Below are positions 27,387 to 49,322 of a stretch of DNA of 64,000 bases, one piece after another. The notes under the pieces were generated by a model. It made no database searches. It was given only the letters and a program-made list of their open reading frames with translations, and was not told the origin of the DNA. The position numbers and the translations under genes were made by a program. The DNA lies in IMG/VR virus record IMGVR_UViG_3300047510_001118, positions 124,001 to 188,000 of that record. The stretch is one strand, 5' to 3'. The DNA comes from a virus. Each line of letters starts with the position of its first letter. The first letter of the stretch is position 1.

Positions 27387-27393
27387 TATGACT

Positions 27394-30411: not shown

Positions 30412-30846
30412 ATGAAAGATCAGATTGTCTGCTCCGGCGCACTTTTTTATGCTAAATCTACTAAACGTTTTCTACTGCTACAAAAAGCAGAAGGCAAGCA
30501 TGCCAACACGTGGGGACTAGTAGGCGGTACTAACAACGAAGGCGAAACTGCTTGGCAAGGTCTTCAACGAGAAATCCAAGAAGAAATTGGCGCTGTTCCA
30601 AACATTCTAAAAACTATTCCTATAGAAACATTTGTCAGCAATGATACTGTTTTTAATTTTCACACCTATCTCTGTGTAATTTCAGAAGAATTTATTCCAA
30701 CACTCAGTAATGAACACACGGGCTGGGCCTGGTCAACTGTAGACGGTGCTCCTAAACCTTTACACCAAGGTTTAAAATCTAGTTTCAGTAATAAAACTAT
30801 CAGAACTAAACTTCAAACAGTGTTTGATATTGTAGAGCTAATATAA
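30412..30846 (+). CDS. Nudix hydrolase
   Basis: A 144-residue hydrolase that would cleave a nucleoside diphosphate linked to another group X. The Nudix box is complete: Gly39, Glu45, then REIQEEIG at 53-60, so Mg2+ binding and catalysis should be intact. The substrate cannot be read from the sequence; nucleotide sugars, NADH/FAD, capped RNA or 8-oxo-dGTP are possible. It is the first enzyme of the plus-strand arm of the tailoring island and shares a base with the following gene (TAATG at 30846). If it acted on FAD or NADH it would affect the halogenases nearby; that is speculation. Confidence 0.9.
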   Translation: MKDQIVCSGALFYAKSTKRFLLLQKAEGKHANTWGLVGGTNNEGETAWQGLQREIQEEIGAVPNILKTIPIETFVSNDTVFNFHTYLCVISEEFIPTLSNEHTGWAWSTVDGAPKPLHQGLKSSFSNKTIRTKLQTVFDIVELI

Positions 30847-31676
30847 TGTTTAATTGGTTTAAAAAGAAAAAAAGTTGGGTAAGATTCTACTCTCTAGATC
30901 AAAATGTTGCTGTAATGTATCCGGTTATAGAAACTAAACTAGTCGATCGAGACTGGAATGATCTTGCTACCACTGAAAGAAATAGGCCAGAACAAGGACG
31001 ACAGACTGTATTAAATTGTCCAGCAATTAAGCAGGCTATAAATGTCGGTTATGTTCTTTGTGCTCCGGCAGACTTTGTCATCAAGACCGGACCTTCGATT
31101 GAAAATCTAAGTTGGGAAACTCCGTTTTTATTTAAACGCGAATCACAAAAATATACATTCAGCGGCACCGATTATTATGTAAGTTGGCATAGTCCTGCTC
31201 AAACCGAACCGTTGCTACCCAAAGAAATACCTAATTCAGATCGTGCCTGTTTACACTCGGCAGTTAAGGTTGAAACTCCCTGGCGAATAAAGGCCAGCGA
31301 AGATATAGTGTTTTTACAAGTTCCGGTTTCTTATAACAGTGAATCTAGATTTACCGCTGCCATAGGTATAGTCGATCCAAGATACATGCACGCGGTCAGT
31401 GTACAATTATTTTGGCATGTTCTTGATGGAGAAACACTAATCAAAGCAGGCACACCGCTGGTTCAGTACATTCCTATCAGTAGAGAATTATTAAAGAAAA
31501 ACAGTCACGAATTTATCTGTGATTCTGCCACTGACATAGAAAAAGAAATTGAAGAAGCCTATACATTTGCCAATCACAATAGGTTTCCTCGAACTGATAC
31601 TGTATCTAATAAGATTCAAATAATCACAAAATTATTTGATTACTTCCGTAAAAAATACCCAAACTCTAAAATTTAA
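30846..31676 (+). CDS. Unknown halogenase-linked protein, copy 1 (DUF6065-like)
   Basis: A 276-residue protein with no known function. It is clearly homologous to the minus-arm protein at 45444-46232. Shared blocks are the N-terminal RFYSL, the CPxI...APADFxI stretch (about 58-78), ETPWR (about 144-148), the SRFTAA block (about 172-177) and VQLFW...AGTPL...IPxSR (about 190-218). It looks all-beta, possibly a double-stranded helix, without an obvious metal triad. I believe such proteins are catalogued as DUF6065, but could not check. It overlaps the convergent oxygenase gene by 4 bases. Both copies sit near FAD halogenases, suggesting a shared accessory or substrate-presenting role. Confidence 0.8.
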   Translation: MFNWFKKKKSWVRFYSLDQNVAVMYPVIETKLVDRDWNDLATTERNRPEQGRQTVLNCPAIKQAINVGYVLCAPADFVIKTGPSIENLSWETPFLFKRESQKYTFSGTDYYVSWHSPAQTEPLLPKEIPNSDRACLHSAVKVETPWRIKASEDIVFLQVPVSYNSESRFTAAIGIVDPRYMHAVSVQLFWHVLDGETLIKAGTPLVQYIPISRELLKKNSHEFICDSATDIEKEIEEAYTFANHNRFPRTDTVSNKIQIITKLFDYFRKKYPNSKI

Positions 31677-32263
31677 ATGTTTAACTTAGTTAGAGGATCG
31701 GAATTAATTTCTCCTCGAACAAAAGTATTAAACGACAGAGAGATTCTAGGTATTTCTCCTTCGTAGTAATCAACTAGATGTTCTGTATTACTGGGGAAAA
31801 CTAGCATATCGCCGGCTCTAGGGGTTATGGACCAACTTTTTGAGTTATATACGTTGGCTCCCATAACTTGAAATTCAAGAGTGTCATATTGACTAGTTAT
31901 AAATCTAATATTTCCTGTTTCGCCTTCTGATTCTAGATACAGTACACCAGATAAAATAGAATTAGGGTGCCAGTGTCTATGATGACTCTGTCCTTTTTCA
32001 GTTTTGTTCAACCAACTTTCAGTGATATAAATTTCTACTTTAGGACTAACCATCATTATGTTATAAAAATATTCTTTAACTATCTGTTGGCACTTTTCAC
32101 CGAGGTCTCTAAAGTTTTCAGATCCTAATATATCTTGGCTTTCGCTGATCCAATTTTGATAGTTTCTGGCCCATTTAACTGAGCTCAAATCTATGTTTCC
32201 GATATCAACGGGTGCTCGAAATATTGGTTTTGAAAATAAGGGCCAAACGGTTTTTTCTGTCAT
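31673..32263 (-). CDS. 2-oxoglutarate/Fe(II) oxygenase-type protein, HxH variant
   Basis: A 196-residue protein with the double-stranded beta-helix pattern of small phage 2OG oxygenases. Candidate iron site: His97 and His99 in HRHWHPNS, distal His162 in FPSNTEHLV, and Arg173 (IPRISLSFN) for 2-oxoglutarate. The usual Asp/Glu of HxD is replaced by His, as in five other proteins here. It is the only minus-strand gene inside the plus arm, convergent with the DUF6065-like gene and divergent from the next oxygenase. ATG 32263 is preferred to GTG 32278 because a GTG start adds only five residues; neither has a clear ribosome site. Substrate unknown. Confidence 0.8.
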   Translation of the reverse strand: MTEKTVWPLFSKPIFRAPVDIGNIDLSSVKWARNYQNWISESQDILGSENFRDLGEKCQQIVKEYFYNIMMVSPKVEIYITESWLNKTEKGQSHHRHWHPNSILSGVLYLESEGETGNIRFITSQYDTLEFQVMGANVYNSKSWSITPRAGDMLVFPSNTEHLVDYYEGEIPRISLSFNTFVRGEINSDPLTKLNI

Positions 32264-32329
32264 GATGTCTGTTTTCACTTGGTTAACTATGATATATATA
32301 GTGCTTCCCTTGACATTTTACTGACAATT

Positions 32330-32908
32330 ATGAAATTAGAAAAAGACATAGCAATATTTGATAATGTTCTAACCAAAGACGAATGCAGTCAATTAATAGA
32401 ACATTTCAATCGTTTAGAGAAATTAAATCTAAGTTTTACCCGAATAGATCTTAGGGACGCACCTGGACATAAAAAAAATGACCGTGCTACTTTTCCGCTA
32501 GAAGAAACTTCTATGAGATTTTCGTCAGACATGGCCTTTTTAAATGTTTTCTTAGATCGATTTTGGATTTGTTATAATCGGTATATGGATCATTACAGTG
32601 TCTTGATCGACGCACCGAGACAGTATGTTAGATCATTAAAGATACAAAAAACTTTGCCAGGGCAAGGTTATCATGTTTGGCATTTTGAAAATGACGGTAT
32701 TGAACGGGCATCAAGAATCTGTGCTTGGGGAATATATCTTAATACTGTAGAACAAGGTGGAGAAACTGAGTGGCTATACCAGGGCGTAAGAGTTCCAGCC
32801 ACAGAAGGAAGTTTAGTTATATGGCCTGCTGGTTTTACGCACACCCATAGAGGAAATCCTCCACTTAGCGGGGAAAAATATTTAATGACCGGATGGGTAG
32901 AGTTTTAA
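32330..32908 (+). CDS. Prolyl-4-hydroxylase-like 2OG/Fe(II) oxygenase, HxE type
   Basis: A 192-residue oxygenase. The candidate iron ligands are His118 and Glu120 in YHVWHFEND and a distal His at 171 or 173 (FTHTHRGNP). Lys183 (EKYLMTGW) may bind 2-oxoglutarate, as Lys does in prolyl 4-hydroxylases. The N-terminus (IAIFDNVLTKDECSQLIEHF) is the typical start of this family. ATG 32330 is chosen because homologous domains begin with this block. It is translationally coupled to the next oxygenase (TAATG at 32908). Its target could be a protein residue or a small molecule. Confidence 0.82.
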   Translation: MKLEKDIAIFDNVLTKDECSQLIEHFNRLEKLNLSFTRIDLRDAPGHKKNDRATFPLEETSMRFSSDMAFLNVFLDRFWICYNRYMDHYSVLIDAPRQYVRSLKIQKTLPGQGYHVWHFENDGIERASRICAWGIYLNTVEQGGETEWLYQGVRVPATEGSLVIWPAGFTHTHRGNPPLSGEKYLMTGWVEF

Positions 32909-33513
32909 TGGAAGTAATTAATGCTTTTCCTGTCGAATTTTTTGTTTTTAAAAATAAAGATATTGACAATCAGGAATTAATTAAAAAATTAGAACGTCTC
33001 GATAATGTTGAGATTAAAAAAACTACTACTCTTAGTATGTTAGTAGATTTACGTAATTTGCCAGAATTTTCTGATTTATTTTCTTGGTTTAAGTCTTGCC
33101 TTGAAGAAGTACGCCAAGGAATGAAGTTTGACTGCGACCGTTTAGAAATATCAAATAGTTGGTTTAATGTCGCCATGGCAGACTATAAAATGTATCAAAA
33201 CTATCATAGGCATTCTATGAGTTTTTACAGCGCAGTATATTATCTAACTGGCGGGTCATCTACAATATTCGAGGATCCTGTTCGAGATCGAAGCCAAGCA
33301 CAGATTGAAGTTCTTAGACATGACTATCAACCAACATTTGCCTCAGAAGCAGAACCGGGAAAATTAATCATCTTTCCTAGTTGGGTATATCACAATAGTC
33401 GCCCGCATCTAGAAAGTTTCAATCGATATGTAATCAGTTTTAATGTTTTTCCTGCGGGTAAAATTAATTATAATCTAGCCACCGATTCTAAACTTGAGGT
33501 TGAAATAAAATGA
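32908..33513 (+). CDS. 2OG/Fe(II) oxygenase-type protein, HxH variant
   Basis: A 201-residue protein from ATG 32908, coupled by TAATG to the gene before. The N-terminus INAFPVEFFVFKN matches the FPTPIW-type start of the small phage oxygenase family. The fingerprint is NSWFN (83-87), HRHSMSFYSAVYYL with His100 and His102, PGKLIIFPSWVYHNS with His162, and Arg173 in NRYVISFNVFP. ATGA joins it to the first halogenase gene, so it is probably made in equal amounts with it. Activity is inferred from fold motifs; the HxH arrangement leaves the exact iron ligands open. Confidence 0.8.
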   Translation: MEVINAFPVEFFVFKNKDIDNQELIKKLERLDNVEIKKTTTLSMLVDLRNLPEFSDLFSWFKSCLEEVRQGMKFDCDRLEISNSWFNVAMADYKMYQNYHRHSMSFYSAVYYLTGGSSTIFEDPVRDRSQAQIEVLRHDYQPTFASEAEPGKLIIFPSWVYHNSRPHLESFNRYVISFNVFPAGKINYNLATDSKLEVEIK

Positions 33514-35003
33514 TTAAAAGTCTAGTAGTTCTTGGCAGCGGCACAAGCGGCCTATTAGCAGCCTTGATGATGAAAAAAGCATTTAATGATATGTCTGTAA
33601 AAGTAGTAGCCAGCGAAAGAATAGGAATTATTGGCGTGGGAGAAGGGGCCACAGAACACTGGAAATTTCTCTGTAATTTTCTTGGCATTAACATGAATGA
33701 AGCAGTAGTTCATTGTGGTGCTACTATGAAAGTTGGTATTGTGTTTAAAGATTGGGGTGTTCCAGATTATTATCATTCGGTATTTGATAGTTACGCTTGG
33801 AAAAATGGTGAAACATATCCCTTTTATTCTAAATTAATGGGAGATCGAGTTGACTCCATACAGTTGACCGGTCGAGGATCTAGAGAGCCCATTGTTCCCC
33901 TTGGTTGGGCTACTATGAAAGAAGACCCCGAGGCTAGTCAGTTTCATTTTAATACATTTAAACTAAATGAATATCTTCACAGACTATGTAAAGAAAGAGG
34001 TATTGAAATAATTAACGACGAGATAACAGACGTAGTTATAGAAGACGGTGTAGTAAAAGAATTAATAGGATCACAAAAACATTCTGCTGATTTCTTCATC
34101 GACAGTAGTGGAATGGCTAGGGTTATCATAGGTAAACTTGGTGCCCAATGGAACAGTTACGGAAAACATTTAATCACTAATTCTGCTATAGCATTTCCCA
34201 CTGAAGATACCGACGAGTATCCAATTTATACCACAGCCACTGCTATGAAGCACGGCTGGATGTGGAACACTCCAGTCCAAGGACGATGGGGTAACGGTTA
34301 TGTATTCTGTGACAAGTATATTGACTTTGATCAGGCACAGGCCGAGGTAGAAGAAAAACTAGGTAAAAAAGTTAATATATTTAAAAAAATAAAGTTTGAT
34401 CCAGGGACACTTGATAAAAATTGGATCAGTAATTGTTGTGCTATAGGTCTTAGTTCTGGGTTTGTTGAGCCTTTAGAAAGTTCAGCAATAAGTCAAGGAC
34501 TATTACAAACATGGTTATTAATGAATGTATTTCCGTCTTGGGGGAATTCTAAAAAATCTATTACAGATCTCTATAATAGCAAGTGTCGAGCAATCAGCGA
34601 AAACATTTTAGATTTTATAGCAGTTCACTTTATTACTCCTAGGGAAGATACAGAGTTTTGGAAATATTTAAAATTAAATAGATCTAAGTGGGTTCCTAAG
34701 TCTTTAGAAAAAAATCTAAAGAGTTGGCATAAACGAACACCGCTGTCGTTTGAGTTTGACAGTCAATGGACGTTATTTAAAGCAGAAAATTGGATTTTAA
34801 CTTTGTACGGTTTAGGTCTGTTTGATCTAGATGCTATCAAAGAAGAATACGAACTACACGACCAATCAGTTAAAGATTACGTCAACGGATATTTACAAGA
34901 CGAAATAGATTTTATAAACTCTCGAACTTATGTTTCCCATAAAAAAGGTTTAGAGATGTTTGTTGAAAATTTTAATAAAATAAAAACGGAATATAAATTA
35001 TGA
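33510..35003 (+). CDS. FAD-dependent tryptophan-halogenase-type protein 1 (altered WxWxIP)
   Basis: A flavin-dependent halogenase-family protein of 497 residues; PrnA-type enzymes are 510-540. It would use FADH2, oxygen and halide to form HOX, delivered by a catalytic Lys. Visible: dinucleotide fold VLGSGTSGLLAALM (7-20), GVGEGATEHW (42-51), Lys74 in ATMKVGIVFKDW as the candidate catalytic Lys, WMWNTP at 250-255 (canonical WxWxIP changed to WxWxTP) and VEPLESS with Glu320, equivalent to the essential Glu. Gene ends overlap both neighbours as ATGA. It lies first of three in tandem and is closest to the next gene product. The substrate is unknown; known viral halogenases accept varied aromatics. 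Confidence 0.88.
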   Translation: MIKSLVVLGSGTSGLLAALMMKKAFNDMSVKVVASERIGIIGVGEGATEHWKFLCNFLGINMNEAVVHCGATMKVGIVFKDWGVPDYYHSVFDSYAWKNGETYPFYSKLMGDRVDSIQLTGRGSREPIVPLGWATMKEDPEASQFHFNTFKLNEYLHRLCKERGIEIINDEITDVVIEDGVVKELIGSQKHSADFFIDSSGMARVIIGKLGAQWNSYGKHLITNSAIAFPTEDTDEYPIYTTATAMKHGWMWNTPVQGRWGNGYVFCDKYIDFDQAQAEVEEKLGKKVNIFKKIKFDPGTLDKNWISNCCAIGLSSGFVEPLESSAISQGLLQTWLLMNVFPSWGNSKKSITDLYNSKCRAISENILDFIAVHFITPREDTEFWKYLKLNRSKWVPKSLEKNLKSWHKRTPLSFEFDSQWTLFKAENWILTLYGLGLFDLDAIKEEYELHDQSVKDYVNGYLQDEIDFINSRTYVSHKKGLEMFVENFNKIKTEYKL

Positions 35004-36502
35004 TCGATTCTTTGTGTGTATTAGGTGGAGGAACTAGCGGGCTAATAGTTGCGCTTATGGCTCGAGAAGCCTATCCTAAACTAAAAATAACTATGTTAGA
35101 ATCTAGCAAGTTAGGAATTATTGGTGTTGGCGAAGGATCTACAGAACACTGGAAAAAATTTATCAATCAGATTGGAATAAATGTCCCCGAACTAGTTAGG
35201 GAAACCGGCGCAACATTTAAAATAGGTATTAAGTTTACAAACTGGCATGGAGACGGAACGCACTACTTCCATAGCCTCAGTGAACAGTTCGGCAGTCATT
35301 CTTTTAAAAACGGATTACCATTTACATGGTTTCAAATCGTAGGGGAAAATTGGGATCCGCTAGATACTGCTTGGAAATTATCAATGGACAGCCGTCATAT
35401 TGAACCTCTTCATGATATCCTAAGTCAATATCATTTTGACACATTTAAACTTAACGACTACTTACACAGGCTCTGTAAAATTAGAGGTATTGATATTGTT
35501 GACACTGAGGTCGAGGACGTCATTTTAGATGAACAGGGATTTGTTAAAGAATTAATTGATGTAAACCATACTAGACATGCCTATGATTTTTATGTCGACT
35601 GTAGCGGATTCCGACGTGTCATTGGCAGCAAACTAGGCGCAAAGTGGATTGATTGTACAGATAAACTGCCAATGAATTCGGCTATTGCTTTCCCTACAGG
35701 GTATACCGAAGATATTCCTAGTTATACTGAAGCAACAGCATTAACCAGCGGCTGGTGCTGGAGGATTCCAACACAAGAGAGATACGGAAACGGTTATGTT
35801 TTCTGTGATAATTTTATCAATGAAACACAGGCCTATGATGAAGTTTCAGAATATTATAAACAGTCAAACATCGCAGACAAAATAGAAATAGGAAGAAAAG
35901 TTAAATTTGGAGCAGGTTATGTTGACAAATTCTGGATTAAAAATTGTGCGATGATAGGTCTCAGTGGCATATTTGTAGAACCTCTCGAGGCTTCTAGTAT
36001 CGGCACTACTATACAGCAGACATTTATGCTATTGCCAAGTTTAATGTTCTTTAATCGCGACGAAGAAATAACATCTAACAAGTATAATTTTATGATGAAA
36101 AAAGTTTCCACTAACATCGTAGACTTTATACAACTTCACTATTTTACTCAAAGGTCTGATTCAGAATTTTGGCGTTGGTGTAAAAACGAACTAGTATTAA
36201 CTGATTTTAACAAAGAATACCTAGACTATTTTAAAAAGAATATGCCTAATGTATATTATTTTAATGATCCAATGATTCTGTTTAGTCATTTAAATTTTAC
36301 TCAGGTTATGCATGGTCTAAGATTATTCGACAACGATAAAATATTAAAAACTTATGAAAGTCATCTAAGTCAGTATACACTTGAAACCAATAATATTTTA
36401 AAAGATATTGACGATCAAGTAGCAAATAATGAAATATTTTCTCATCGCCAGGCTTTAGAAATTTTAAAAGAAAGATATGAAAAAACACACTATAAACTCT
36501 AA
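35000..36502 (+). CDS. FAD-dependent tryptophan-halogenase-type protein 2 (canonical motifs)
   Basis: A 500-residue flavin-dependent halogenase-family protein. The dinucleotide fold is VLGGGTSGLIVALM (7-20), then GVGEGSTEHW (42-51), candidate catalytic Lys74 in ATFKIGIKFTNW, intact WxWxIP (WCWRIP, 252-257) and Glu327 in FVEPLEASS. All residues expected for halogenation are present. It is a recent-looking paralogue of the gene before it: the same spacing of motifs, KLNDYLHRLC against KLNEYLHRLC, and GNGYVFCD in both. It has an ATGA overlap with the preceding gene and a 26-base overlap with the next. A free FADH2 supply from a host or distant reductase is required. Confidence 0.9.
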   Translation: MIDSLCVLGGGTSGLIVALMAREAYPKLKITMLESSKLGIIGVGEGSTEHWKKFINQIGINVPELVRETGATFKIGIKFTNWHGDGTHYFHSLSEQFGSHSFKNGLPFTWFQIVGENWDPLDTAWKLSMDSRHIEPLHDILSQYHFDTFKLNDYLHRLCKIRGIDIVDTEVEDVILDEQGFVKELIDVNHTRHAYDFYVDCSGFRRVIGSKLGAKWIDCTDKLPMNSAIAFPTGYTEDIPSYTEATALTSGWCWRIPTQERYGNGYVFCDNFINETQAYDEVSEYYKQSNIADKIEIGRKVKFGAGYVDKFWIKNCAMIGLSGIFVEPLEASSIGTTIQQTFMLLPSLMFFNRDEEITSNKYNFMMKKVSTNIVDFIQLHYFTQRSDSEFWRWCKNELVLTDFNKEYLDYFKKNMPNVYYFNDPMILFSHLNFTQVMHGLRLFDNDKILKTYESHLSQYTLETNNILKDIDDQVANNEIFSHRQALEILKERYEKTHYKL

Positions 36503-38027
36503 GGCAATAATTTTAGGTGGTGGTACTGCTGGTTGGCTAACAGCAATTTTCATAAAGCGTAACTGGCCCACTGTAGATGTTTCTGTTATAGAAAATCCCA
36601 AACAACCTCCCATAATTGCTGGAGAAAGTGGCACAACAACATTCGTAAGTCTTCTGCGTCATTTAAAAATTGATGTTGAAGATTTTATTAGGAAAGTCAA
36701 TGCTACTCCTAAATTGGGAGGTAAATTTCGTAACTGGGACAGTGTTGGTTCTGAATTTATTCATAGTTTACAGACAGATTATGCTCCGTGGCTAGACGGA
36801 TGGAACGAATACGTTGATGAAAATACTGAAGTTAATTACAGTCTGACAGCAGTTCGAGGAATGTTAGGACATCAAAGTGATCCGTATCTTAAAACTCTCA
36901 TAGGAAATAATGTTCCTATTGCCGATGCGTTATTCGCAACATATTTTATTAAAGAAAATAAAGTTCCTTTTGGGGCGTCTAGTGATATTCCTTGTATTCC
37001 AATGTGGCATTTTGAAAGTCGAGGAGCCGCGGGTTATTTTAAAAATCTCGGGTTAGAGAGAGGTATAAATCTAATCGAAGGCGAATATCAAAGTTCTAAT
37101 TTAGATGACCGAGGAAATATAACATCGCTGGTTCTTGATGGTGATAGACTAGTTCAAGGAGACTGGTTTTTCGATTGTTCGGGATTCGCTAGACTATTAG
37201 TAGGCAAAGTTTACAATGAAAAGTTAGTTGACTATACAAATTACTTTCCAGCAAGAGCGGTAGTAGCATGGTGGGACGATCCTTGTTATTGTGTCACTAC
37301 TAATGCTACAGCAATGAAATATGGTTGGTCTTGGAATATTAATCTTCGCCATAGATCTGGAAACGGTTATATCTATGACCCGGATCATATAACTCTAGAT
37401 CAAGCACTAGACGAAGCCAAAGAAATGTTTGGCCAGCATATCGAACCCATTGCTAATTTTCAATTCACTCCAGGAATGTTTAGAAAGGCATGGCATAAAA
37501 ATACAGTTGCTATCGGACTTAGTTCTGGCTTTCTAGAACCTTTAGAAGCCAACGGCGTAGCAGTAATTATTGAAAGTTTATATGCTTTACAAGATTATTG
37601 GAAACCTTTTGAAAAATCAATGCGGGAAGAAGCGATAGAAAGATTTAATGATCGTGTCTGGTACATAACAGAAGATATTCGAGACTTTTTATCTCTACAT
37701 TATAGAGGTCATAGATCTGACACAAAATTTTGGCTCAGTCATAAAAATGATGATTTTCGAGTGCCCCCAAGTCTAAAAGAAAAACTAGAAAACTGGAAAT
37801 TATTTTTTGCTAATATGGGGTCGGATCCCGAATGTCACGGATATAGCCCTACGGCGTGGCTTATGGTTTTACAGGGATTAAAAATGTTTGATCATAGTCC
37901 GATAGCGGCTAGCATGAAGAACTTTCTTCCTATAGGAAATAGTGTACTAAATAAGAATGTAGCCCGTTATAAGGGACTTGTTGCTCCATTTTGGACCATA
38001 GATGAGTGGATTCAACGGACAGCATAA
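36477..38027 (+). CDS. FAD-dependent tryptophan-halogenase-type protein 3 (altered WxWxIP)
   Basis: A 516-residue flavin-dependent halogenase-family protein, more distant from copies 1 and 2. It has IILGGGTAGWLTAIF (11-25), AGESGTTTF (48-56), candidate catalytic Lys79 in ATPKLGGKFRNW, WSWNIN at 284-289 in place of WxWxIP, and FLEPLEANG with Glu354. The WxWxIP block is thought to keep monooxygenase substrates away from the flavin, so its change here may alter specificity. The ribosome site is AAAGAAAGAT inside the end of the preceding gene. A CATAAATA late promoter overlaps its stop codon and serves the small gene downstream. Confidence 0.87.
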   Translation: MKKHTINSKAIILGGGTAGWLTAIFIKRNWPTVDVSVIENPKQPPIIAGESGTTTFVSLLRHLKIDVEDFIRKVNATPKLGGKFRNWDSVGSEFIHSLQTDYAPWLDGWNEYVDENTEVNYSLTAVRGMLGHQSDPYLKTLIGNNVPIADALFATYFIKENKVPFGASSDIPCIPMWHFESRGAAGYFKNLGLERGINLIEGEYQSSNLDDRGNITSLVLDGDRLVQGDWFFDCSGFARLLVGKVYNEKLVDYTNYFPARAVVAWWDDPCYCVTTNATAMKYGWSWNINLRHRSGNGYIYDPDHITLDQALDEAKEMFGQHIEPIANFQFTPGMFRKAWHKNTVAIGLSSGFLEPLEANGVAVIIESLYALQDYWKPFEKSMREEAIERFNDRVWYITEDIRDFLSLHYRGHRSDTKFWLSHKNDDFRVPPSLKEKLENWKLFFANMGSDPECHGYSPTAWLMVLQGLKMFDHSPIAASMKNFLPIGNSVLNKNVARYKGLVAPFWTIDEWIQRTA

Positions 38028-38030
38028 ATA
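38023..38030 (+). promoter_or_regulatory. Late promoter (CATAAATA) overlapping the stop of halogenase 3
   Basis: CATAAATA, then TACTG and a leader with AAAGGAGAA before ATG 38053. One mismatch to TATAAATA. It would give the 56-aa gene its own, possibly abundant, late transcript. Confidence 0.6.
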
Positions 38031-38052
38031 TACTGTTAAAGGAGAATTTACA

Positions 38053-38223
38053 ATGCCTACATATAAGATGATTTTTAGAGATGCAGAAAATCCTAATACA
38101 TCTGACCTACATATCATTGAAGATTTTTGCGAAGCAAAAACTAGAGAAGAAGCACGTCAAATTTTTGAGGATCGCCACGGAGTGAAGTATGTAGTCGCCG
38201 GTCCGATCAAAGTTGAGGAATAA
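38053..38223 (+). CDS. 56-aa protein at the end of the plus arm
   Basis: A small, highly charged protein starting MPTYKMIFRDAENPNTS, with a helical C-terminal half (EAKTREEARQIFEDRHGVKY). ATG 38053 has an excellent ribosome site (AAAGGAGAA) and its own late promoter, so it may be made in large amounts. It has one Cys, no Trp and no membrane segment. Function unknown. Being the only non-enzyme at this end of the island it could be a carrier, regulator or substrate; that is speculation, and a role outside the island is equally possible. Its stop lies 17 bases from the convergent minus arm. Confidence 0.75.
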   Translation: MPTYKMIFRDAENPNTSDLHIIEDFCEAKTREEARQIFEDRHGVKYVVAGPIKVEE

Positions 38224-38240
38224 TCCTTAATTTTTCTTGT

Positions 38241-40636: not shown

Positions 40637-41244
40637 TGTGCTGTTCCAAAAAATGTTATTGTTAATCTAGACGTTTCGATGGTATCACCGAAATAATTTT
40701 CTGCGCTGTGCCACTGATACGGAGCAAACATCACACACCTGTTATACACATTCTCAATATACATATTTTTCTTAAATAATTCTCTCTGTTGTTCTTTAAA
40801 TTTAAGATATTTTTTTAAATCCTGTGTTGTATTTTCTTCAAAAGATAATTTAGCATAGTTTTGATCATCATCATTGATCTTAGTGAAAAATGAAATACCA
40901 GAATCTTTTGGTGGATGTGGATTCAGAAATATGACTCCCGCTACATTATAGTTAGGCTCATCTTGGTGTATCCATCCTTTTCCATAGGTATTGTTAACCA
41001 AGGCAAAGTTAGTTTTTAGATGTAAAAAATTTTGTTTAGCGTGTATATGATTAATCAGTTTAGTAGCCAACGAATGAAAAAGATTTTCATTTAATTCGTT
41101 AATAGGTTTAGTTCTAGTACCTGGCCATGTTTTATATTCGTCAATATTGTATTCTTGTTTAAGAGCATAATGCCTCCATAGATCACCGGATTCGAAAAAG
41201 TTATCTATAACCTTTATTGGCTGTGATATAGGTATGTGCTTCAT
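40633..41244 (-). CDS. 2OG/Fe(II) oxygenase-like protein, DUF6445-type, copy 1
   Basis: A 203-residue protein with His93 and Asp95 in KGWIHQDEPNYNVAGVIFL, distal His179 in YNRCVMFAPYQWHSAENYFG and Arg193 in SRLTITFF, fitting a 2OG oxygenase fold. Residues 36-46 (EYKTWPGTRTK) and the WHSAENYFG signature are shared with the next gene product. From memory this is the type called DUF6445, which in some bacteria also lies next to tryptophan halogenases and cupin-like genes; not checked here. The ATGA overlap with the upstream paralogue implies coupled synthesis. Confidence 0.8.
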   Translation of the reverse strand: MKHIPISQPIKVIDNFFESGDLWRHYALKQEYNIDEYKTWPGTRTKPINELNENLFHSLATKLINHIHAKQNFLHLKTNFALVNNTYGKGWIHQDEPNYNVAGVIFLNPHPPKDSGISFFTKINDDDQNYAKLSFEENTTQDLKKYLKFKEQQRELFKKNMYIENVYNRCVMFAPYQWHSAENYFGDTIETSRLTITFFGTAQ

Positions 41245-41948
41245 ACTGCCCTCGCAAAAAATACCTGTGTAAGTCTAGCCGTAGTATGTGAATTTCCAAA
41301 GAAGTTTTCGGCACTGTGCCAGTTGCGAGGATCGAAAATAATACATCTATTATAAACGCTTTCCATCGTAACTGAAGGTGTAAAGTGAGAAATTTGTTCT
41401 TTTCTATATTTTTCGTACTGTGCTCGTTCCTCGGGACTGGCTACTAAAACATCATTCATAAAAATTTCTGTGTAAAGATCTCCGTTAAAATCGGTTTGAT
41501 CTTCGTAGATGACAGTGCCACTGCCCAGCGGGCTGTCTTGATTTAAATAGACAACACCTGCGATATTTAATTTAGGATCGTCATCGTGGACCCATCCGCG
41601 TCCATAGGATTCCTCGATAACTTGAAATCCGGTTTGTAGTTCTAAAAATTCTGTATATCCGTAGTCTTTGAGTATTATCAGTAGTTTCCTCATAAACATT
41701 TCAAAGAAATCTCGATTTACAGTATGTAACAAATCAGTTCTAAGTCCGGGCCAACTGCCGCGTTCTCCTTTAAAAAATTTCTGATCCAGAGCAAATTCTC
41801 TAACTAGATCCGGGTCTTCGTAAAAGTTATCAAAGACCATCGTGGGCAAGTATGGATAGACAAAACGATTCTTAATGCCCGATCCTTCGATGAATCTGCC
41901 ACTACTTTTATTCATTTCGATCAGTTTATTAATGTATGCCTTATCCAT
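41241..41948 (-). CDS. 2OG/Fe(II) oxygenase-like protein, DUF6445-type, copy 2
   Basis: A 235-residue paralogue of the preceding entry. The matching blocks are SWPGLRTD (65-72), GRGWVHDDDPKLNIAGVVYL with His121 and Asp123, YNRCIIFDPRNWHSAENFFG with His211, and Arg225 in ARLTQVFF. It is about 30 residues longer at the N-terminus, where the preceding gene product lacks the MDKAYINKLIEMNKSSGRF segment. Tandem duplication within the operon is the simplest origin; divergence outside the active-site blocks suggests different substrates. It overlaps the upstream gene by 8 bases. Confidence 0.8.
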   Translation of the reverse strand: MDKAYINKLIEMNKSSGRFIEGSGIKNRFVYPYLPTMVFDNFYEDPDLVREFALDQKFFKGERGSWPGLRTDLLHTVNRDFFEMFMRKLLIILKDYGYTEFLELQTGFQVIEESYGRGWVHDDDPKLNIAGVVYLNQDSPLGSGTVIYEDQTDFNGDLYTEIFMNDVLVASPEERAQYEKYRKEQISHFTPSVTMESVYNRCIIFDPRNWHSAENFFGNSHTTARLTQVFFARAV

Positions 41949-42519
41949 TTTTTCTCGCCGTAAAATTCATTGTTAGGACTATTCTTTTTGTAAACATTTT
42001 AGGACACGAACTTGCGTGATAATGCCAGCCGTTAAACATTAAGATTTTTCCTTGATCGGGTGTACTACGATGCATTACTCTATACTTTTCAGACGGATCG
42101 ATTTCATGGAATATATAGGTATCTCCGTCGGTGCTGTTAACATAGTAACAAACAGTAAAGTGTTCTTGATCATAATCTCGATGAGGAAGATTATGTTTAT
42201 ATGGCATGCTTGGTAGAGCATATTTGGTATTTAATAAAAATCCCAACCGCATTCTTAGCAACGTACCTAACTCATATCCTGTTTTATTCAGCGTTTCATT
42301 TAATAATGGCATGAAAAAATCTAAGTACGGATTAGTTTCATTGTTGGGATGGAACACTAAATGTGTAAATCCTGGTGTAGAATTTTGTATATCGTTGGCT
42401 TTTTCAAACGTAGTATCTTCAACAAAGTGCCAAGGAAATTTAATATCTGTTACTAGGTCATAAATTTTATTTTGATATTCTTTATCTATAACATTTGATA
42501 TTTCTATAGGTTTAAACAT
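41941..42519 (-). CDS. 2OG/Fe(II) oxygenase, HxD type
   Basis: A 192-residue oxygenase. Iron site: His113 and Asp115 in NLPHRDYDQEHFTVCYYV, distal His168 in KILMFNGWHYHASS, and Arg179 in KRIVLTMN. The STDGDTYIFHEID strand and the N-terminal block (IDKEYQNKIYDLVTDIKFPW) match the protein at 39412-40020, its paralogue. All catalytic positions are present. Its start overlaps the upstream JmjC-like gene by 8 bases. Confidence 0.86.
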   Translation of the reverse strand: MFKPIEISNVIDKEYQNKIYDLVTDIKFPWHFVEDTTFEKANDIQNSTPGFTHLVFHPNNETNPYLDFFMPLLNETLNKTGYELGTLLRMRLGFLLNTKYALPSMPYKHNLPHRDYDQEHFTVCYYVNSTDGDTYIFHEIDPSEKYRVMHRSTPDQGKILMFNGWHYHASSCPKMFTKRIVLTMNFTARKNG

Positions 42520-43234
42520 TGTGATTGATCCTATAATAATTTCTATCTACGCTGTTCGTAGGCGACTCTGTGGTAAATCTATTCCAACACGGAATACTCA
42601 TACTTAATCTTTTACTATCTGGATACGCAACGTGAAAACATCTAGCAGGAATATACAGCGCATCGCCTGGTTCTAGTTCTACGTCTAATGCTACTTCTAA
42701 ATCTTCTTCAGAGACTCTGTTATTCATAGTTCCAGTTTTATAAAGATAAGATATTCTATTTTTAAATACCTTCCATCTAGTTTTTCCTTCTACTTGGAAA
42801 ATAAAATTTGCTGGATAATCATCGTGTATTGGAAAACTTTTTGATCCAGTTAATCCGCAGTAAACATGAATAGCGGCATTAACAAAAAATAATTTTTCAA
42901 AAATAGTTAGCAAGTGATTTGTTTTTTCGTTGTAAAAACCATAATTAGTAATTACTAAACAGTTACCTTGATTTACCTTGTCAAAAATAAATTCTTTATC
43001 TTGTACTTTCCTGTTCCATATCCATGCTTTAGTATGCTCTGGTATTTCAATTTTTTGATTTGTTATATGATCTATTAATTCAAATTGAAATAATTCAGGG
43101 CGATTCATACAAGACTCTACATCTTGCCATGTAAGCAATTCATGAGGAGTTTCTAATAAACCTTTAAAAAAATGAGGCTTATCGTTGACTAAGAGATTAG
43201 TTTCATTTAATATACGTTGTCCGATAGCGTTCAT
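42512..43234 (-). CDS. JmjC/cupin-8-like Fe(II)/2OG hydroxylase
   Basis: A 240-residue protein with the pattern of JmjC-type or cupin-like hydroxylases, not the prolyl-hydroxylase type. It has AIHVYCGLTGSKSFPIHDDY with His137 and Asp139, FIFQVEGKTRWKVF (144-157) as the strand that carries the 2OG-binding residue, then LEPGDALYIPARCFHVAYP with distal His201. The N-terminal 120 residues are a helical and beta region that may bind the target. JmjC enzymes hydroxylate or demethylate proteins or RNA, so a macromolecular substrate is plausible. It overlaps the gene before by 32 bases. Confidence 0.85.
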   Translation of the reverse strand: MNAIGQRILNETNLLVNDKPHFFKGLLETPHELLTWQDVESCMNRPELFQFELIDHITNQKIEIPEHTKAWIWNRKVQDKEFIFDKVNQGNCLVITNYGFYNEKTNHLLTIFEKLFFVNAAIHVYCGLTGSKSFPIHDDYPANFIFQVEGKTRWKVFKNRISYLYKTGTMNNRVSEEDLEVALDVELEPGDALYIPARCFHVAYPDSKRLSMSIPCWNRFTTESPTNSVDRNYYRINHNV

Positions 43235-43829
43235 CGTCTGTCCTAATTAATTTAACATTAAATGCTAGAGAAATTCGATCCTCGTTAGTTGGATTGTATC
43301 CTACACCATGCGGCAAATGTCCTGGGAACATTAATAACTTACCTGATAAAGGTTCAAAACTTATTGCGCTGGCACTGGCCGGTGTATAATGATCTAAAAC
43401 TGCCTGTGAAGATATAATATAATCTAAAGCATGATTTTTATAAAATGTTATATTTCCTTGCCCGGCAGTTGCTTTGACATAAAATGTTCCTGATAAAAAA
43501 CTATTATCGTGTATATGGATCGAATTTCCGTTATTTTGATTATTGATATTAAACCAAAAATTTTCTAAATCAATAATAACTAAATCTTCTTTGTAGCCGT
43601 AATCTCTTACACATTGCTCTGCTTGTTCTAATATTTTACGTTCTAAAACTTCTAATTCTTTATATGTACCCGGACGAAAATCTTTACTTTGCCATCCGCC
43701 TTCGTTGCTTAGTTTTCTTCCCTGTGGATCTTTTTCTCTTAGAGAATAGCACAGGGATATCAAATCTGTAGGATCGATATCAGTTTGTTCCCACCAAATA
43801 GGAGTTGGAAAATAATATCCTATATTCAT
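43203..43829 (-). CDS. 2OG/Fe(II) oxygenase-type protein, HxH variant
   Basis: A 208-residue protein with the family's usual start (MNIGYYFPTPIWWEQ). The fingerprint is NFWFNI (90-95), SIHIHDNSFLSGTFYV with His105 and His107, SGKLLMFPGHLPHGVGYNP with His174, and Arg185 in EDRISLAFNVKL. It is among the best-conserved members of the HxH group here, with 44620-45204 and 31673-32263. Asp108 follows the second His. It overlaps its neighbours by 4 and 32 bases. Confidence 0.82.
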   Translation of the reverse strand: MNIGYYFPTPIWWEQTDIDPTDLISLCYSLREKDPQGRKLSNEGGWQSKDFRPGTYKELEVLERKILEQAEQCVRDYGYKEDLVIIDLENFWFNINNQNNGNSIHIHDNSFLSGTFYVKATAGQGNITFYKNHALDYIISSQAVLDHYTPASASAISFEPLSGKLLMFPGHLPHGVGYNPTNEDRISLAFNVKLIRTDDERYRTTYIK

Positions 43830-44623
43830 TTTAATATATCTCTCATAGTTGTAGGAGGTAATTCGTGACTAAAAGCAAATGTATGACTCCATCTAAAGTC
43901 TACTGAATCGCAGATGTAGGCCAAATGACATACATTGGCTGGATAAATTGTAAGAGTTTTATATTTGGACGGTGCTGTTCCTATTAGCTCAAATCCCCAT
44001 TCAGACAATTCGCCGTCGGAGATATTAAACCAACTATCGGCTCTTTTAGGAAACTCGCTAAGTTCTCTCCACTTTTTGTGATTTGGATGTGTTTTGTCAA
44101 CTTGAAAATCATATAATTCTCTAAACATCTTTCCGTGATATTGATAAATCTTTGTTCCGCTGTCGTTAAGGTTATGATCAGTAAACCACATATTTGCTAC
44201 CATTCCATAAACATAGTCAATGTGAGGTATTCTCCAACAGGTTATTGGTCGAGAATTTTTCTTGAAATAAACATTTCCCCACTCGTGTATCTGTGGATCA
44301 AATATGTCAGTTCTGATATTTTTTAAATAAAATTCTTTTATTAAGACACAGAGATCTAAACTTACCCACTCGGGTACATGTATTGTATCGAAAGGATTTG
44401 GATCAAAGTTACTAGGATGATTATTATCTTTTTGTATTGGAAATGATGCTATAAGATTTTTGAAAATTTCAAATCCATCATCTACAAACGGATCTTCTGC
44501 TATCCAGTAACCAACATCTTTGGTTAGTTTGACATATTCTGTCTGCCAGGAGTCCAGAGGTTTTAATTTTAAAACCTTGTTAAAATTATTAGCATCAGGA
44601 TAGCATACTTTAAAATCTATCAT
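43826..44623 (-). CDS. 2OG/Fe(II) oxygenase-like protein with large insertion, HxD type
   Basis: A 265-residue protein, the longest oxygenase-like member of the arm. Candidate iron site: His134 and Asp136 in CWRIPHIDYVYGMVANMWF and distal His233 in YPANVCHLAYI, with Arg244 (DFRWSHTF) possible for 2-oxoglutarate. An insertion of about 60 residues (165-220) separates the two halves; NSRPITCWRIPHID and the loop may form a substrate lid. Start and stop both overlap neighbours as ATGA. The fold assignment is less certain than for shorter members. Confidence 0.75.
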   Translation of the reverse strand: MIDFKVCYPDANNFNKVLKLKPLDSWQTEYVKLTKDVGYWIAEDPFVDDGFEIFKNLIASFPIQKDNNHPSNFDPNPFDTIHVPEWVSLDLCVLIKEFYLKNIRTDIFDPQIHEWGNVYFKKNSRPITCWRIPHIDYVYGMVANMWFTDHNLNDSGTKIYQYHGKMFRELYDFQVDKTHPNHKKWRELSEFPKRADSWFNISDGELSEWGFELIGTAPSKYKTLTIYPANVCHLAYICDSVDFRWSHTFAFSHELPPTTMRDILK

Positions 44624-45204
44624 TTTATATTAAATGTGAGAACGATTCTTTCTTGATCGGTTTTATTTGGCTGGACTCTGTGACGCAAAAATCCAGGAAA
44701 TATTAATACGTCATTGGTTTCAGCAGGAACTGCTCTGTAAAGCGATTCTTCTGGTATTATAGGATACATTGTTTTATGATATTCAAGAGGATCTTTAAAT
44801 TCAATATATCCGGCACCCGGCGGAAGTTTTATATAGGCAGCGACAGCAAATGTAACATTGTTGTGATTGTGCTCTAAAGTTTCTCCAGAGTTTCCGTGTC
44901 TATTAAACCACGACTCTGTTACTTCACTCCACCCGTTAGTGAATCCGTATTCTCGACGAATATGTGCGATGCGTTCGCCTAGCCAATTTTGAAAATGTGC
45001 TAGTTCGTCCCAGGTGTGTGGTTGTATTTCCTTGTCAAGCGATACTGTAGATATCGCCTGTCCTTTTTCTAATCGAGAATTTTCTTCAACTTGAGAAAAC
45101 AAATTCTCAATTTTAGGGCCTAAAATGTCATAATTAAATTCGTACCTAAATTTCCAAATGTCTGGAGGAAATACGAACAAACCGCCATTATTAAGATGTA
45201 ACAC
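44620..45204 (-). CDS. 2OG/Fe(II) oxygenase-type protein, HxH variant
   Basis: A 194-residue protein if started at GTG 45204, which has GAGGA eight bases upstream; the frame is open to TTG 45228, but the family usually begins close to this FVFPPDIW block. Fingerprint: ESWFNRHGNSG (97-107), EHNHNNVTFAVAAYIKL with His112 and His114, NDVLIFPGFLRHRVQP with His175, and Arg187 in QERIVLTFN. It is coupled to the 82-aa gene, overlapping its end by 14 bases, and to the next gene by ATGA. Confidence 0.8.
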   Translation of the reverse strand: MLHLNNGGLFVFPPDIWKFRYEFNYDILGPKIENLFSQVEENSRLEKGQAISTVSLDKEIQPHTWDELAHFQNWLGERIAHIRREYGFTNGWSEVTESWFNRHGNSGETLEHNHNNVTFAVAAYIKLPPGAGYIEFKDPLEYHKTMYPIIPEESLYRAVPAETNDVLIFPGFLRHRVQPNKTDQERIVLTFNIK

Positions 45205-45439
45205 CCTGTGTTTCCTCGAACGTCTCAAGTGCTAGAGTAAGACCCATGAGAACACCTTCCATCTTTAAAACATCGACAGATAAATCTTGTCGACGAGTAA
45301 AATCAATAGAAGTAATTCCATATGGATTTAATTTAATGTTAGCAAAATCTTCTTCCATTTTTGATAATTCTTGTTGTGCTTTTTCTTTTTCAGAAGTTAG
45401 ATTAGCCATCGTCTGTTGAATTTTTTCTTTGAAACTCAT
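45191..45439 (-). CDS. 82-aa coiled-coil protein in the minus arm
   Basis: A small protein with a coiled-coil N-terminal part (residues about 1-32, LTSEKEKAQQELSKMEEDF) and a mixed C-terminal part (TSIDFTRRQDLSVDVLKMEG). There is no Trp or Cys and no enzymatic motif. It lies between the DUF6065-like gene and the first oxygenase of the arm, with no gap larger than 4 bases. An adaptor or chaperone for one of the enzymes is possible. Function unknown. Confidence 0.75.
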   Translation of the reverse strand: MSFKEKIQQTMANLTSEKEKAQQELSKMEEDFANIKLNPYGITSIDFTRRQDLSVDVLKMEGVLMGLTLALETFEETQGVTS

Positions 45440-45443
45440 AATA

Positions 45444-46232
45444 TCATCCTTTTTTATATCTAGTTAGTACTGCTATAGAACGTTTTAATCTTGAGGCTAA
45501 ACTATCATGATTTAAAATCACACAGTTTGCGGCATAATTAAAGGCTCTTTCCTTTTCTTTATCACGGTCATTGGCGTTTTCTATTTTAACATCATAACTG
45601 GATAAGGACAAGGATTTTCTTGAAACAGGTATTAATTGGCATAGAGGAGTTCCAGCTCGAACTAGAGTTTTGTCATTTAATACATTCCAAAAAAGTTGGA
45701 CATTTAATACGTGTCCGTATTTCATATCAAGGAACCCCGTGGCTGCTGTGAATCTGCTTTCGTTGTTATAGGTTACAGGCAGTTGAAGTAGCATAACATC
45801 ATCACTGGCTTCAACTCGCCACGGGGTTTCTAACTTTATTACAGTTTTTAAAGTTGTATTGGGATCATCTATCAGCGGTTCTACTTGACTACGTGTATGA
45901 CCAGAAACATAGGCATCACGTCCTTCGCTGACTTTATTGAATCGATAAGGTTCTCTCCATTCCATGCTTACACCGTCACCGTTAGTTTGAATGATGAAAT
46001 CGGCAGGTGCTGGCACTACCCAGCCTGTTGAAATAATTTTTCTAATTCCTGGACAATTTTTAGAACTCAAAGTTTCAGGAAGGTCACCGACCTGTTCCTG
46101 TTCCATAAACGGTCTAACTAACCTTGATGATGGAATAATTGGAAAAAGATCTACTACACCAGGCTCTAGACTATAAAATCTGATATAGGGCTCTTCTTTT
46201 TTACCAAATAATCTTTTACAGAGCGTAGTCAT
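45444..46232 (-). CDS. Unknown halogenase-linked protein, copy 2 (DUF6065-like)
   Basis: A 262-residue paralogue of the protein at 30846-31676. Conserved blocks: IRFYSLEPG (17-25), NCPGIRKIISTGWVVPAPAD (about 59-78), ETPWRVEASDDVMLLQLPV, NESRFTAATGFLD, and VQLFWNVLNDKTLVRAGTPL with IPVSR. It is beta-rich, has no signal peptide and shows no recognised active site. It overlaps the end of halogenase 4 by 17 bases, so the two should be produced together. Linkage of this family to a halogenase in both arms is the best clue to its role. Confidence 0.82.
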   Translation of the reverse strand: MTTLCKRLFGKKEEPYIRFYSLEPGVVDLFPIIPSSRLVRPFMEQEQVGDLPETLSSKNCPGIRKIISTGWVVPAPADFIIQTNGDGVSMEWREPYRFNKVSEGRDAYVSGHTRSQVEPLIDDPNTTLKTVIKLETPWRVEASDDVMLLQLPVTYNNESRFTAATGFLDMKYGHVLNVQLFWNVLNDKTLVRAGTPLCQLIPVSRKSLSLSSYDVKIENANDRDKEKERAFNYAANCVILNHDSLASRLKRSIAVLTRYKKG

Positions 46233-47832
46233 CTTTTCCGCCGTAGATATTATCTTTCAAATATTGATAATGCGTCGGTAGTGTTTTAATATACTCAACA
46301 ACAAAATCTCTATATTCTTCGTATCTACGTTTTGTAAATCCTATTTCTTCTTCTTTAAGTTCGCGTTCGATTCTATCACCGCCGAAGAAAATTAATTCTT
46401 TGGTCGATATTGATTTAACTCCCATGCCGGCTGCAATGAAAATATTTCCAGTATAGTCTTGAAAGTATCTTTGGTTACCGGCTATGTTGCCGACCAAATT
46501 CGGGTACTGTGCTTGATACAACATATAATCACCGTGCATATCAGGACAATATTCGTGTAGTTCAGTACACCAGCGCCAGTAAGGAGTGTCAGTCCTCATC
46601 GACAGAGCATAGTGTTGAGAAACAAAATCTCTAAACTTAGTAACTTCAAAATCTACAGCAAAATTATAGCCTTCAATTTCTGATCTAGTAACAAAGCCCT
46701 GTCTACGGTTAAGAGCATCGACTAGTTTAATAATGTTTTCGTGAGTAGTTAACAGTCCAGTAGACTCTAATGGTTCAACAAATCCATAACTTAGGCCGAC
46801 ACCAACTACATTGGCTAACCATGCTCTTCGACGCTTACCATGTCTAATTTTTACAGGAAACATTTCTGCTTCTTCTGCGATTTTAGGACTGTGTTTTACA
46901 GCCAAATGTGCTCTAAATTCTTTTTGAGCATCCTCGGGTGTTACAAATCTAGTAGAAAATACGTAGCCAGTGCCAATCCTGTTCCAGAGAGGAATATTCC
47001 ATACCCAGCCATTGTCCAAGGCGTGGCAGTCAGTGACATTGTGCATTTCGCGCTCTCTGTCGATGTATGGTAATCTACAGGCCCAAGCCATATCATTGGC
47101 TAGATATTTGTCAAATGGTTTAAATTCAGAACCCATCCAACCTTCTAATAAAATTGATTTGAACCCAGTACAATCGATCCATAGATCCGATTTTAAAATT
47201 CTACCATCATCTAACATGATATCTGTGATATCGCCTCTTGTATTTTTTTTATGCGAATGTACATCGCCTACTATATGTTCAACTCCGTGGGGTAGTGCTA
47301 TTTTTTCTTTGAGATATTTTCCAAAAAGTTGAGCATCAAGATGATATGCTGTATCCCATTTAAATTTATAATTTCTTAGTATACCTTTTTCGTCTTTGGT
47401 TTCTTTATTGTGTTTTGCTAACAGCGTATTTCCTGTAACAAAGAATTCTGCAAAACTTTCTGGCGGATATTCGTCAGGATATAATGTTGATAATTCGCTC
47501 CATGATTGTAGGCCGCCCGGCTTATCAGTATAATCTAACCCAGCACTAAATGGGTATTCAAAAGATTCCCCCTTGCCTTCTCTAAAATTAGTAAAACGAA
47601 TAGAATTTTTATATGTGGCATTACAAGCGGCCATCCAGTCTTCGTCTTTAAGATCTAATAACTGAAGAAATTTATTAATGTGACCTAAGGTGCTTTCACC
47701 AACTCCGACAGTGCCAACTTTGGAAGATTCGACAAGTGTAATCTTTAAATGTGGACACAGTTTAGATAATGCTGCCGCAGTCATCCAACCAGAACTTCCA
47801 CCACCTACTATTGTGACTGTGTTAATCTGCAT
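46216..47832 (-). CDS. FAD-dependent tryptophan-halogenase-type protein 4 (canonical motifs)
   Basis: A 538-residue flavin-dependent halogenase-family protein, the closest of the four to PrnA/RebH-type enzymes in length. Visible: TIVGGGSSGWMTAAAL (7-22), GVGESTLGH (43-51), candidate catalytic Lys75 in NATYKNSIRFTNF, intact WxWxIP (WVWNIP, 276-281), IGTGYVFS, and FVEPLESTG with Glu353. It should be able to form a halogenating flavin peroxide with an external FADH2 source. It is the first gene of the 14-gene minus arm and has a ribosome site (AAGGAAAG) behind a perfect late promoter. Substrate unknown; free tryptophan, another aromatic or a peptide side chain are possible. Confidence 0.93.
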   Translation of the reverse strand: MQINTVTIVGGGSSGWMTAAALSKLCPHLKITLVESSKVGTVGVGESTLGHINKFLQLLDLKDEDWMAACNATYKNSIRFTNFREGKGESFEYPFSAGLDYTDKPGGLQSWSELSTLYPDEYPPESFAEFFVTGNTLLAKHNKETKDEKGILRNYKFKWDTAYHLDAQLFGKYLKEKIALPHGVEHIVGDVHSHKKNTRGDITDIMLDDGRILKSDLWIDCTGFKSILLEGWMGSEFKPFDKYLANDMAWACRLPYIDREREMHNVTDCHALDNGWVWNIPLWNRIGTGYVFSTRFVTPEDAQKEFRAHLAVKHSPKIAEEAEMFPVKIRHGKRRRAWLANVVGVGLSYGFVEPLESTGLLTTHENIIKLVDALNRRQGFVTRSEIEGYNFAVDFEVTKFRDFVSQHYALSMRTDTPYWRWCTELHEYCPDMHGDYMLYQAQYPNLVGNIAGNQRYFQDYTGNIFIAAGMGVKSISTKELIFFGGDRIERELKEEEIGFTKRRYEEYRDFVVEYIKTLPTHYQYLKDNIYGGKDDYAL

Positions 47833-49310: not shown

Positions 49311-49322
49311 GCTACTATCCTA

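Follow-up and report, generated by a model that had tools for sequence, protein, structure and literature searches.

The question

Cyanophage genes for 2-oxoglutarate (2OG) oxygenases are usually explained as host-metabolism genes. What, then, would a phage do with a block of fourteen 2OG/Fe(II)- or JmjC-type genes and four flavin halogenase-type genes? The locus that raises this question lies in a stretch of 64,000 nucleotides (the window), bases 124001-188000 of the 278,126-base IMG/VR virus record IMGVR_UViG_3300047510_001118, where an original prediction made from the sequence had placed an oxidative island at positions 30412-47832. We found that the conserved core begins outside these limits, with three glycine-rich tail-fibre-tip genes (48453-51045) and a probable chaperone gene, so that the conserved unit reaches about 51.0 kb and the best functional clue, the adjacent tip genes, had been missed. 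In at least two phage groups, as comparisons of gene order show, a single conserved syntenic unit contains the adhesins, the probable chaperone, a VirX1-type halogenase, a protein of predicted dUTPase-like fold and some ten 2OG/JmjC oxygenases. Our favoured reading, to which we give about an even chance, is that of a late-expressed tail-fibre-tip maturation module that would hydroxylate and halogenate the tip, the adhesins being the proposed substrate.

Adhesin and enzyme genes form a conserved unit

A search with HAL4, the VirX1-type halogenase of the core, returned 171 relatives in viral contigs, the best 80 of which were examined. In most loci of sufficient length the order was adh3-adh2-adh1-tfa-HAL4-U7084b-sm2-OG13-OG12-OG11-JmjC-OG10-OG9-(OG8)-(OG7)-OG6-OG5-OG4, where adh denotes the adhesins, tfa the probable chaperone and OG the oxygenases; in one group this core converges with HAL3-HAL2. 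The order is retained in dozens of viral contigs and in isolated Synechococcus and Prochlorococcus phages. Among 50,697 isolate records, 65 of which had any HAL4 match, all 19 adhesin-bearing records (roughly eight or nine distinct phages) have a VirX1-type halogenase and a JmjC gene nearby. Being patterned on one query, the contig searches are biased towards close relatives, and contigs that are related do not count as independent; with that scope, adhesin-anchored contigs had the halogenase downstream in 68 cases and lacked it in none (10 more end too early), and of 54 HAL4-anchored loci with 9.5 kb or more available, 52 had a 2OG cluster. Of the two exceptions, one (L101) is cut upstream, yet its halogenase is still preceded by tfa and a 2OG gene; in the other (L079), the stretch examined shows no adhesin and no 2OG gene that could be recognised. 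The findings that would have spoken against the original prediction were not made for the core: its genes are linked rather than scattered singly, and its active-site triads are kept.

A pattern search of 84,980 genomes, which finds close relatives only, detected no cellular HAL4 homolog. Because the island also recurs in independent contigs and isolates, we rejected the idea that it is an assembly artefact of bacterial DNA. The island genes are, by sequence comparison, under purifying selection: dN/dS (nonsynonymous to synonymous substitution rates) was about 0.02-0.3 between relatives where dS was measurable. Against the window itself synonymous sites are almost saturated, so that only pN/pS, the corresponding ratio of proportions, is meaningful, and it ranged from 0.15 to 0.6. 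In the HAL4 tree, the contigs classed as jumbo-type from their gene neighbours, except L005-L007, whose HAL4-like gene is a distant paralogue, form one clade with the window (100/99) apart from the Kyanoviridae-type sequences. This topology suggests that the sharing between the two phage groups is old, more than that the genes move often.

Two further loci pair a halogenase with fibre genes. A distinct T4-like contig (L102) carries three glycine-rich adhesins, tfa, an unknown gene and a halogenase, followed directly by neck genes. In phage S-SRM01 (L267, 7947-10528), a single halogenase is flanked by a tail fibre gene on one side and, on the other, by a gene annotated as gp37-gp38 adhesin tip complex; halogenase and adhesin are here paired independently.

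The adhesins have a conserved, histidine-rich tip

The product of adh1 (48453..49310, minus strand) is a glycine-rich tail-fibre-tip protein according to Gly_rich_2, phrog_863 and its match to structure 7YPX; adh2 (49323..50183) and adh3 (50194..51045), also on the minus strand, are its paralogues by sequence similarity. The adh1 model (mean predicted local distance difference test score, pLDDT, 77.6) had the cyanophage Pam3 fibre 7YPX as its best match (E 3.2e-8), and as modelled the adhesin shows the glycine-rich distal domain fold of the Pam3 gp24 and S16 gp38 kind. Across 43 homologs the tip positions are largely conserved, with invariant or nearly invariant His, Asn and Arg, and no hypervariable distal tip was seen. 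Histidine makes up 7-8% of the tip domain versus 1.9% of the other island and fibre proteins. Next to the adhesins, tfa (47938..48429, minus strand; phrog_1787) is a probable tail-fibre chaperone, judging from its place in the gene order; a structure search found no solved relative of it.

Within residues 194-269 of adh1, the sole Lys or Arg is the final residue, and trypsin would release the stretch as one 76-residue peptide, so modifications there could have gone undetected in published virion proteomes.

Four flavin-dependent halogenase family members

The four halogenase-type genes are where the original prediction had placed them, with family-profile (PF04820) matches of E 5e-88 to 1e-105. 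HAL1 (33510..35003; E 1.1e-90), HAL2 (35000..36502; E 5.1e-95) and HAL3 (36477..38027; E 4.7e-88) lie on the plus strand, while HAL4 (46216..47832) lies on the minus strand and is an ortholog of VirX1 of cyanophage Syn10 (E 9.7e-198 to PDB 6QGM). The GxGxxG, active-site Lys and FxEPLE motifs are retained in all four, and WxWxxP in three (HAL1, with T for I, HAL2 and HAL4); in HAL3, WSWNIN replaces WxWxIP and the final P is missing. Thus, profile and motifs identify HAL1-HAL4 as members of the flavin-dependent halogenase family, with HAL4 in the VirX1 clade. The syn9/Syn10 halogenase is 55% identical to HAL4. VirX1 reportedly prefers iodide in vitro. In the literature, halogenation activity is shown for VirX1 only, which has a large, accessible active site (PMC8407142), and the literature searched reports no natural substrate.

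A different multi-halogenase locus was seen in the 188-kb contig L009 (IMG/VR 3300032213_001813), where four halogenase-family genes fall within about 10 kb (2713-13090) and no glycine-rich adhesin occurs within the 17.5 kb read.

Fourteen predicted Fe(II) oxygenases

All fourteen 2OG/Fe(II)- or JmjC-type proteins of the block have intact iron triads. By motif, eight are HxD/E and six HxH, as read from conserved alignment columns; for OG1, OG2 and OG8, where the family alignments gave nothing or were of poor quality, the window sequence was inspected by eye. The six HxH proteins are the PF13759-like ones plus OG5, the latter by motif only, and their metal binding is predicted from the motif. 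With the triad and a distal basic 2OG ligand, the fourteen fit the 2OG/Fe(II) oxygenase superfamily, and oxygenase activity is predicted. Ten reach the Pfam cut-off for 2OG, DUF6445 or JmjC families; OG4, OG5, OG10 and OG12 fall below it and are assigned from PHROG links and conserved HxD/HxH...H...R triads. Several of these assignments are also backed by the annotation of orthologs in phage S-CREM1. The count of fourteen in the original prediction is therefore borne out, as is its view that motifs are intact in most genes, the HAL3 WxWxxP being the departure among the halogenases.

The plus arm holds OG1 (31673..32278, minus strand; PF13759, E 5.6e-21), OG2 (32279..32908, plus strand; PF13640, E 4e-8, HxE...H...K by eye) and OG3 (32893..33513, plus strand; PF13759, E 2.3e-13). 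The remaining oxygenases are on the minus strand: OG4 (38241..38864; phrog_2954, labelled ferrochelatase, with HxD...H...R conserved in 58 sequences), OG5 (38861..39415; phrog_2696, HxH...H...R), OG6 (39412..40020; phrog_274, HxD...H...R), OG7 (40013..40636; PF13759, HxH...H...R), OG8 (40633..41244; DUF6445/phrog_1644), OG9 (41241..41948; DUF6445/phrog_1644, HxD...H...R), OG10 (41941..42519; phrog_274, HxD...H...R), the JmjC oxygenase (42512..43234; PF08007, E 2.4e-16, triad conserved), OG11 (43203..43829; PF13759, HxH...H...R), OG12 (43826..44623; phrog_1644, HxD...H...R) and OG13 (44620..45228; PF13759). The phrog_2954, phrog_1644 and phrog_274 families found at 38241-38864, 39412-42519 and 43826-44623 carry the labels ferrochelatase, minor coat protein and DNA endonuclease V, which look wrong for the members here, given their conserved 2OG-oxygenase triads.

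Fourteen of the 16 2OG-type genes found in the 278-kb record lie in the block; because only two more were found in the whole record, the clustering is not due to chance. Those two are L013 18897-19520, just upstream of the window start, and L017 12056-12709.

The nearest solved structures of the JmjC protein are the histidyl-hydroxylase NO66, MINA and the L16 arginine hydroxylase, and its JmjC_2 similarity (PF08007) is above cut-off. Because it has only 240 amino acids, aligns in the JmjC core alone and is without the dimerisation and winged-helix C-terminal domains of NO66, MINA and YcfD, it is by sequence a protein like the ribosomal oxygenases (ROX) and not a member of that group.

Late-promoter motifs stand at the head of the module

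The sequence TATAAATA, the core of the T4 late promoter, occurs on the minus strand before HAL4 (47859..47866) and before tfa (48435..48442) in the motif scan. The window contains three occurrences versus 7.6 expected, two of the three directly before these genes. Among distinct upstream regions of relatives, it lies within 120 nucleotides of tfa in 21 of 48, of HAL4 in 13 of 72 and of adh1 in 9 of 55, where chance gives about 0.004; in no relative does it lie within this distance upstream of U7084b, sm2, OG13-OG4, JmjC, HAL3 or HAL2. Most genes downstream of the module head overlap, and the related motifs GATAAATA and AATAAATA are found ahead of further structural genes in the window. The simplest reading of these sequence features is late transcription that starts at the module head, and the late timing assumed in the original prediction is thus probably right.

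Proposed tip modification and its rivals

If the module matures the tail-fibre tip, 2OG/JmjC enzymes would, late in infection, hydroxylate conserved tip-loop residues (such as His, Asn and Arg), and one or more halogenases would act on aromatic residues of the same adhesin or of a neighbouring fibre protein. Modification would take place before or during chaperone-assisted trimerisation and would yield a virion whose receptor-binding tip is chemically modified. The plus arm (HAL1-3, OG1-3) may add to this chemistry or have a different substrate. The kinship of the JmjC protein to protein His/Arg hydroxylases, the large site of VirX1 and the His-rich conserved tip suggest, by analogy, such a role. 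The original prediction had named a virion protein among several possible targets, and this part of it fits, with the substrate now proposed to be the adhesins that it overlooked. A further, tentative idea, which we think has a rather small chance of being right, is that the enzyme set rather than the tip sequence determines binding specificity, with ten-plus oxygenases and up to four halogenases patterning a largely invariant tip.

Several observations weigh against tip modification. The substrate is one that we infer, a modified residue having been observed nowhere, and ten or more oxygenases are many for one protein family. The conserved tip histidines, for example in HNH, may have no role other than to bind metal, as happens in T4 gp37. 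Among the island genes none for a flavin reductase was identified; the host would have to supply the reduced flavin. The jumbo-type HAL4 sequences form a single clade; the linkage could therefore be shared inheritance, and independent cases are few. The halogenases of S-B64, S-MbCM6 and Syn1 are located away from fibres, and glycine-rich genes were not enriched near HAL1/2/3-type genes in the flanks read in other contigs; a general rule that phage halogenases sit by glycine-rich fibres was rejected on these grounds. Moreover, the molecules on which VirX1 acts in vitro are small aromatics (PMC8407142).

These small aromatics are among the arguments for a secondary-metabolite route, in which an amino acid would be turned into a halogenated, hydroxylated small molecule that serves the infected cell or acts against competitors. 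A different cluster of halogenase and 2OG/Fe(II)-dependent dioxygenase genes in S-SSM6a has been read so (PMC7824862), and an antibiotic-protection role has been proposed for prnA (PMC9964418, PMC2984593). However, the island shows no recognisable gene for scaffold building, a carbamoyltransferase, a methyltransferase or a transporter, nor was any nonribosomal peptide synthetase, polyketide synthase, amino-acid-ligase or ribosomally synthesised and post-translationally modified peptide family found among its proteins. As the island also stands behind late-promoter motifs, adjoins fibre genes and has a HAL4 for which the genome search, limited to close relatives, found no cellular homolog, we consider this route unlikely. 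Modification of the host envelope, where an oxidised or halogenated receptor or surface glycan might, for example, stop released virions or competitors from binding debris, would account for the linkage to a matching adhesin, and 2OG genes are joined with sugar genes in some phage clusters (S-SSM7). Yet the enzymes appear to be cytosolic, no sugar-nucleotide or transferase genes were recognised in the island and late expression would come late for envelope remodelling, which makes this explanation quite improbable.

The slot between the sheath-stabiliser and fibre genes might, alternatively, collect unrelated enzymes, with the adhesins adjacent by position only. The slot does vary in backbone relatives, with a 2OG gene downstream in 33 of 50 and a halogenase in 21 of 50, and the plus-arm genes are variable. 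In contrast, the minus-arm core has the same genes in the same order on clearly different backbones, and no adhesin was seen without the halogenase where this is testable; we regard a passenger origin as doubtful, with little chance of being correct. The plus arm varies more, and what it does is less certain: the case for linking it to adhesins is weaker, HAL1/2/3-type genes not being near glycine-rich fibres in other contigs. Hardly credible, last, is a sink or sensor for 2-oxoglutarate that steers host nitrogen control, as suggested for cyanophage 2OG genes (PMC3037559), since it leaves the halogenases, the adhesin linkage, the late-promoter motifs and fourteen diverged sequences unexplained. 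Covariation of JmjC presence with adhesin residues gave no signal by eye, among few JmjC-poor loci and few independent cases.

The adhesin linkage supplies a concrete, testable substrate for VirX1 and for cyanophage 2OG genes. Were tip maturation confirmed, host recognition would gain a new layer, in which a phage receptor-binding protein is post-translationally hydroxylated and halogenated; this would bear on host-range prediction from sequence and on biocatalysis on proteins.

Other genes of the island and the phage backbone

The original prediction described two paralogues of an unknown family. They are indeed paralogues, and belong to phrog_7084: U7084a (30846..31676, plus strand) and U7084b (45444..46232, minus strand). 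The AlphaFold2 model of U7084b (mean pLDDT 86.5) matched dUTPases in Foldseek (best E 4.5e-4; template modelling score to target 0.57-0.72, the top hits aligning over about 200 columns), and the predicted fold is dUTPase-like, by extension also for U7084a. Of the five catalytic motifs just a motif-3/4-like stretch was found, with a weak match (E 0.81), and we therefore did not file the family as dUTPases. The small proteins are sm1 (38002..38223, plus strand; 73 amino acids), with no significant family in profile and PHROG searches, and sm2 (45191..45439, minus strand; 82 amino acids), present in most islands.

The two arms converge near 38.2 kb, as predicted, where a hairpin scan found a terminator-like hairpin of 15 pairs (38238..38272, plus strand); in the region, the number of terminator-like sites does not exceed chance. 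Because OG1 lies on the minus strand within the plus arm, the division into two arms is not strict. Most genes overlap, the largest overlap being 38 bases, and not 32, if OG13 begins at its first TTG.

Upstream, the backbone comprises a virion structural protein (27325..28965, plus strand; phrog_11591, native start probably near 27388), the tail sheath stabiliser (28965..30398, plus strand; phrog_11196/phrog_227) and a Nudix hydrolase (30412..30846, plus strand; PF00293, E 7.7e-16). The Nudix gene had been counted in the island, from which we removed it: it follows the sheath-stabiliser gene in relatives both with and without the OG and HAL enzymes. Beyond the adhesins, a 3225-amino-acid protein (52242..61919, minus strand) is probably a tail-fibre subunit from its position, as its homologs precede adhesins in related contigs. 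The tail sheath of the record is closest to those of Sinorhizobium phage Phosso and Agrobacterium phage Atu_ph07; because the identity is only about 43%, the record is, on sequence grounds, a jumbo myophage with no close relative among the isolates of the collection searched. A check for psbA as a sign of cyanophage type found none in the record. Rfam and tRNA scans of the window gave no matches. Elsewhere, a radical-SAM protein (L015 4355-5521; record 88355-89521) lies in a dense minus-strand block of genes for 200-400 amino acids, at about 64-94 kb of the record.

Comparison with known systems

The locus had been called undescribed, which is right only in part, as published cyanophages already show the gene set. 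In the gp38-gp54 region of syn9/Syn10 (Kyanoviridae, Ormenosvirus; the source of VirX1), the adhesin, tfa, halogenases, U7084, the small protein, OG13, OG12, JmjC, OG9, OG6 and OG4 follow the window order, that of Syn10 being taken from match positions. These 177-kb T4-like genomes differ in using one strand only, in having two halogenases versus four here and in lacking, over the stretch read, a convergent HAL1-3 arm. S-CREM1 ORF67-80 likewise encode a collagen-like adhesin, one halogenase in place of four, JmjC and eight 2OG proteins in window order; the authors read its ten 2OG genes and prnA as host-directed auxiliary metabolism (PMC9964418). S-RIM44 has a shortened version of the module, and S-SCSM1 carries 24 2OG genes (PMC9602691). 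The jumbo cyanophage cluster of S-SSM6a/S-SSM7, described in 2021 and predicted to serve a secondary metabolite or capsule decoration (PMC7824862), also combines a halogenase with several 2OG/cupin enzymes; it differs in its carbamoyltransferase, with sugar and carbamoyl chemistry, and is without the adhesin-VirX1 block. A literature search that covered few subscription papers found no report of an adhesin link for these gene sets.

The island JmjC protein shares the JmjC_2 domain with the ribosomal oxygenases NO66, MINA and YcfD and is much shorter. The Pam3 fibre has a glycine-rich stem, a hypervariable receptor-binding tip and a covering chaperone (PMC9608196). Its gp24-gp25 pair (PDB 7YPX) resembles the present locus in the glycine-rich distal domain and the adjacent chaperone gene, whereas no modifying enzymes are described alongside it and its tip is hypervariable where that of the window is conserved. 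Together, these comparisons indicate that the gene sets are already deposited and partly noted, and that their possible function in maturing the tip is potentially new.

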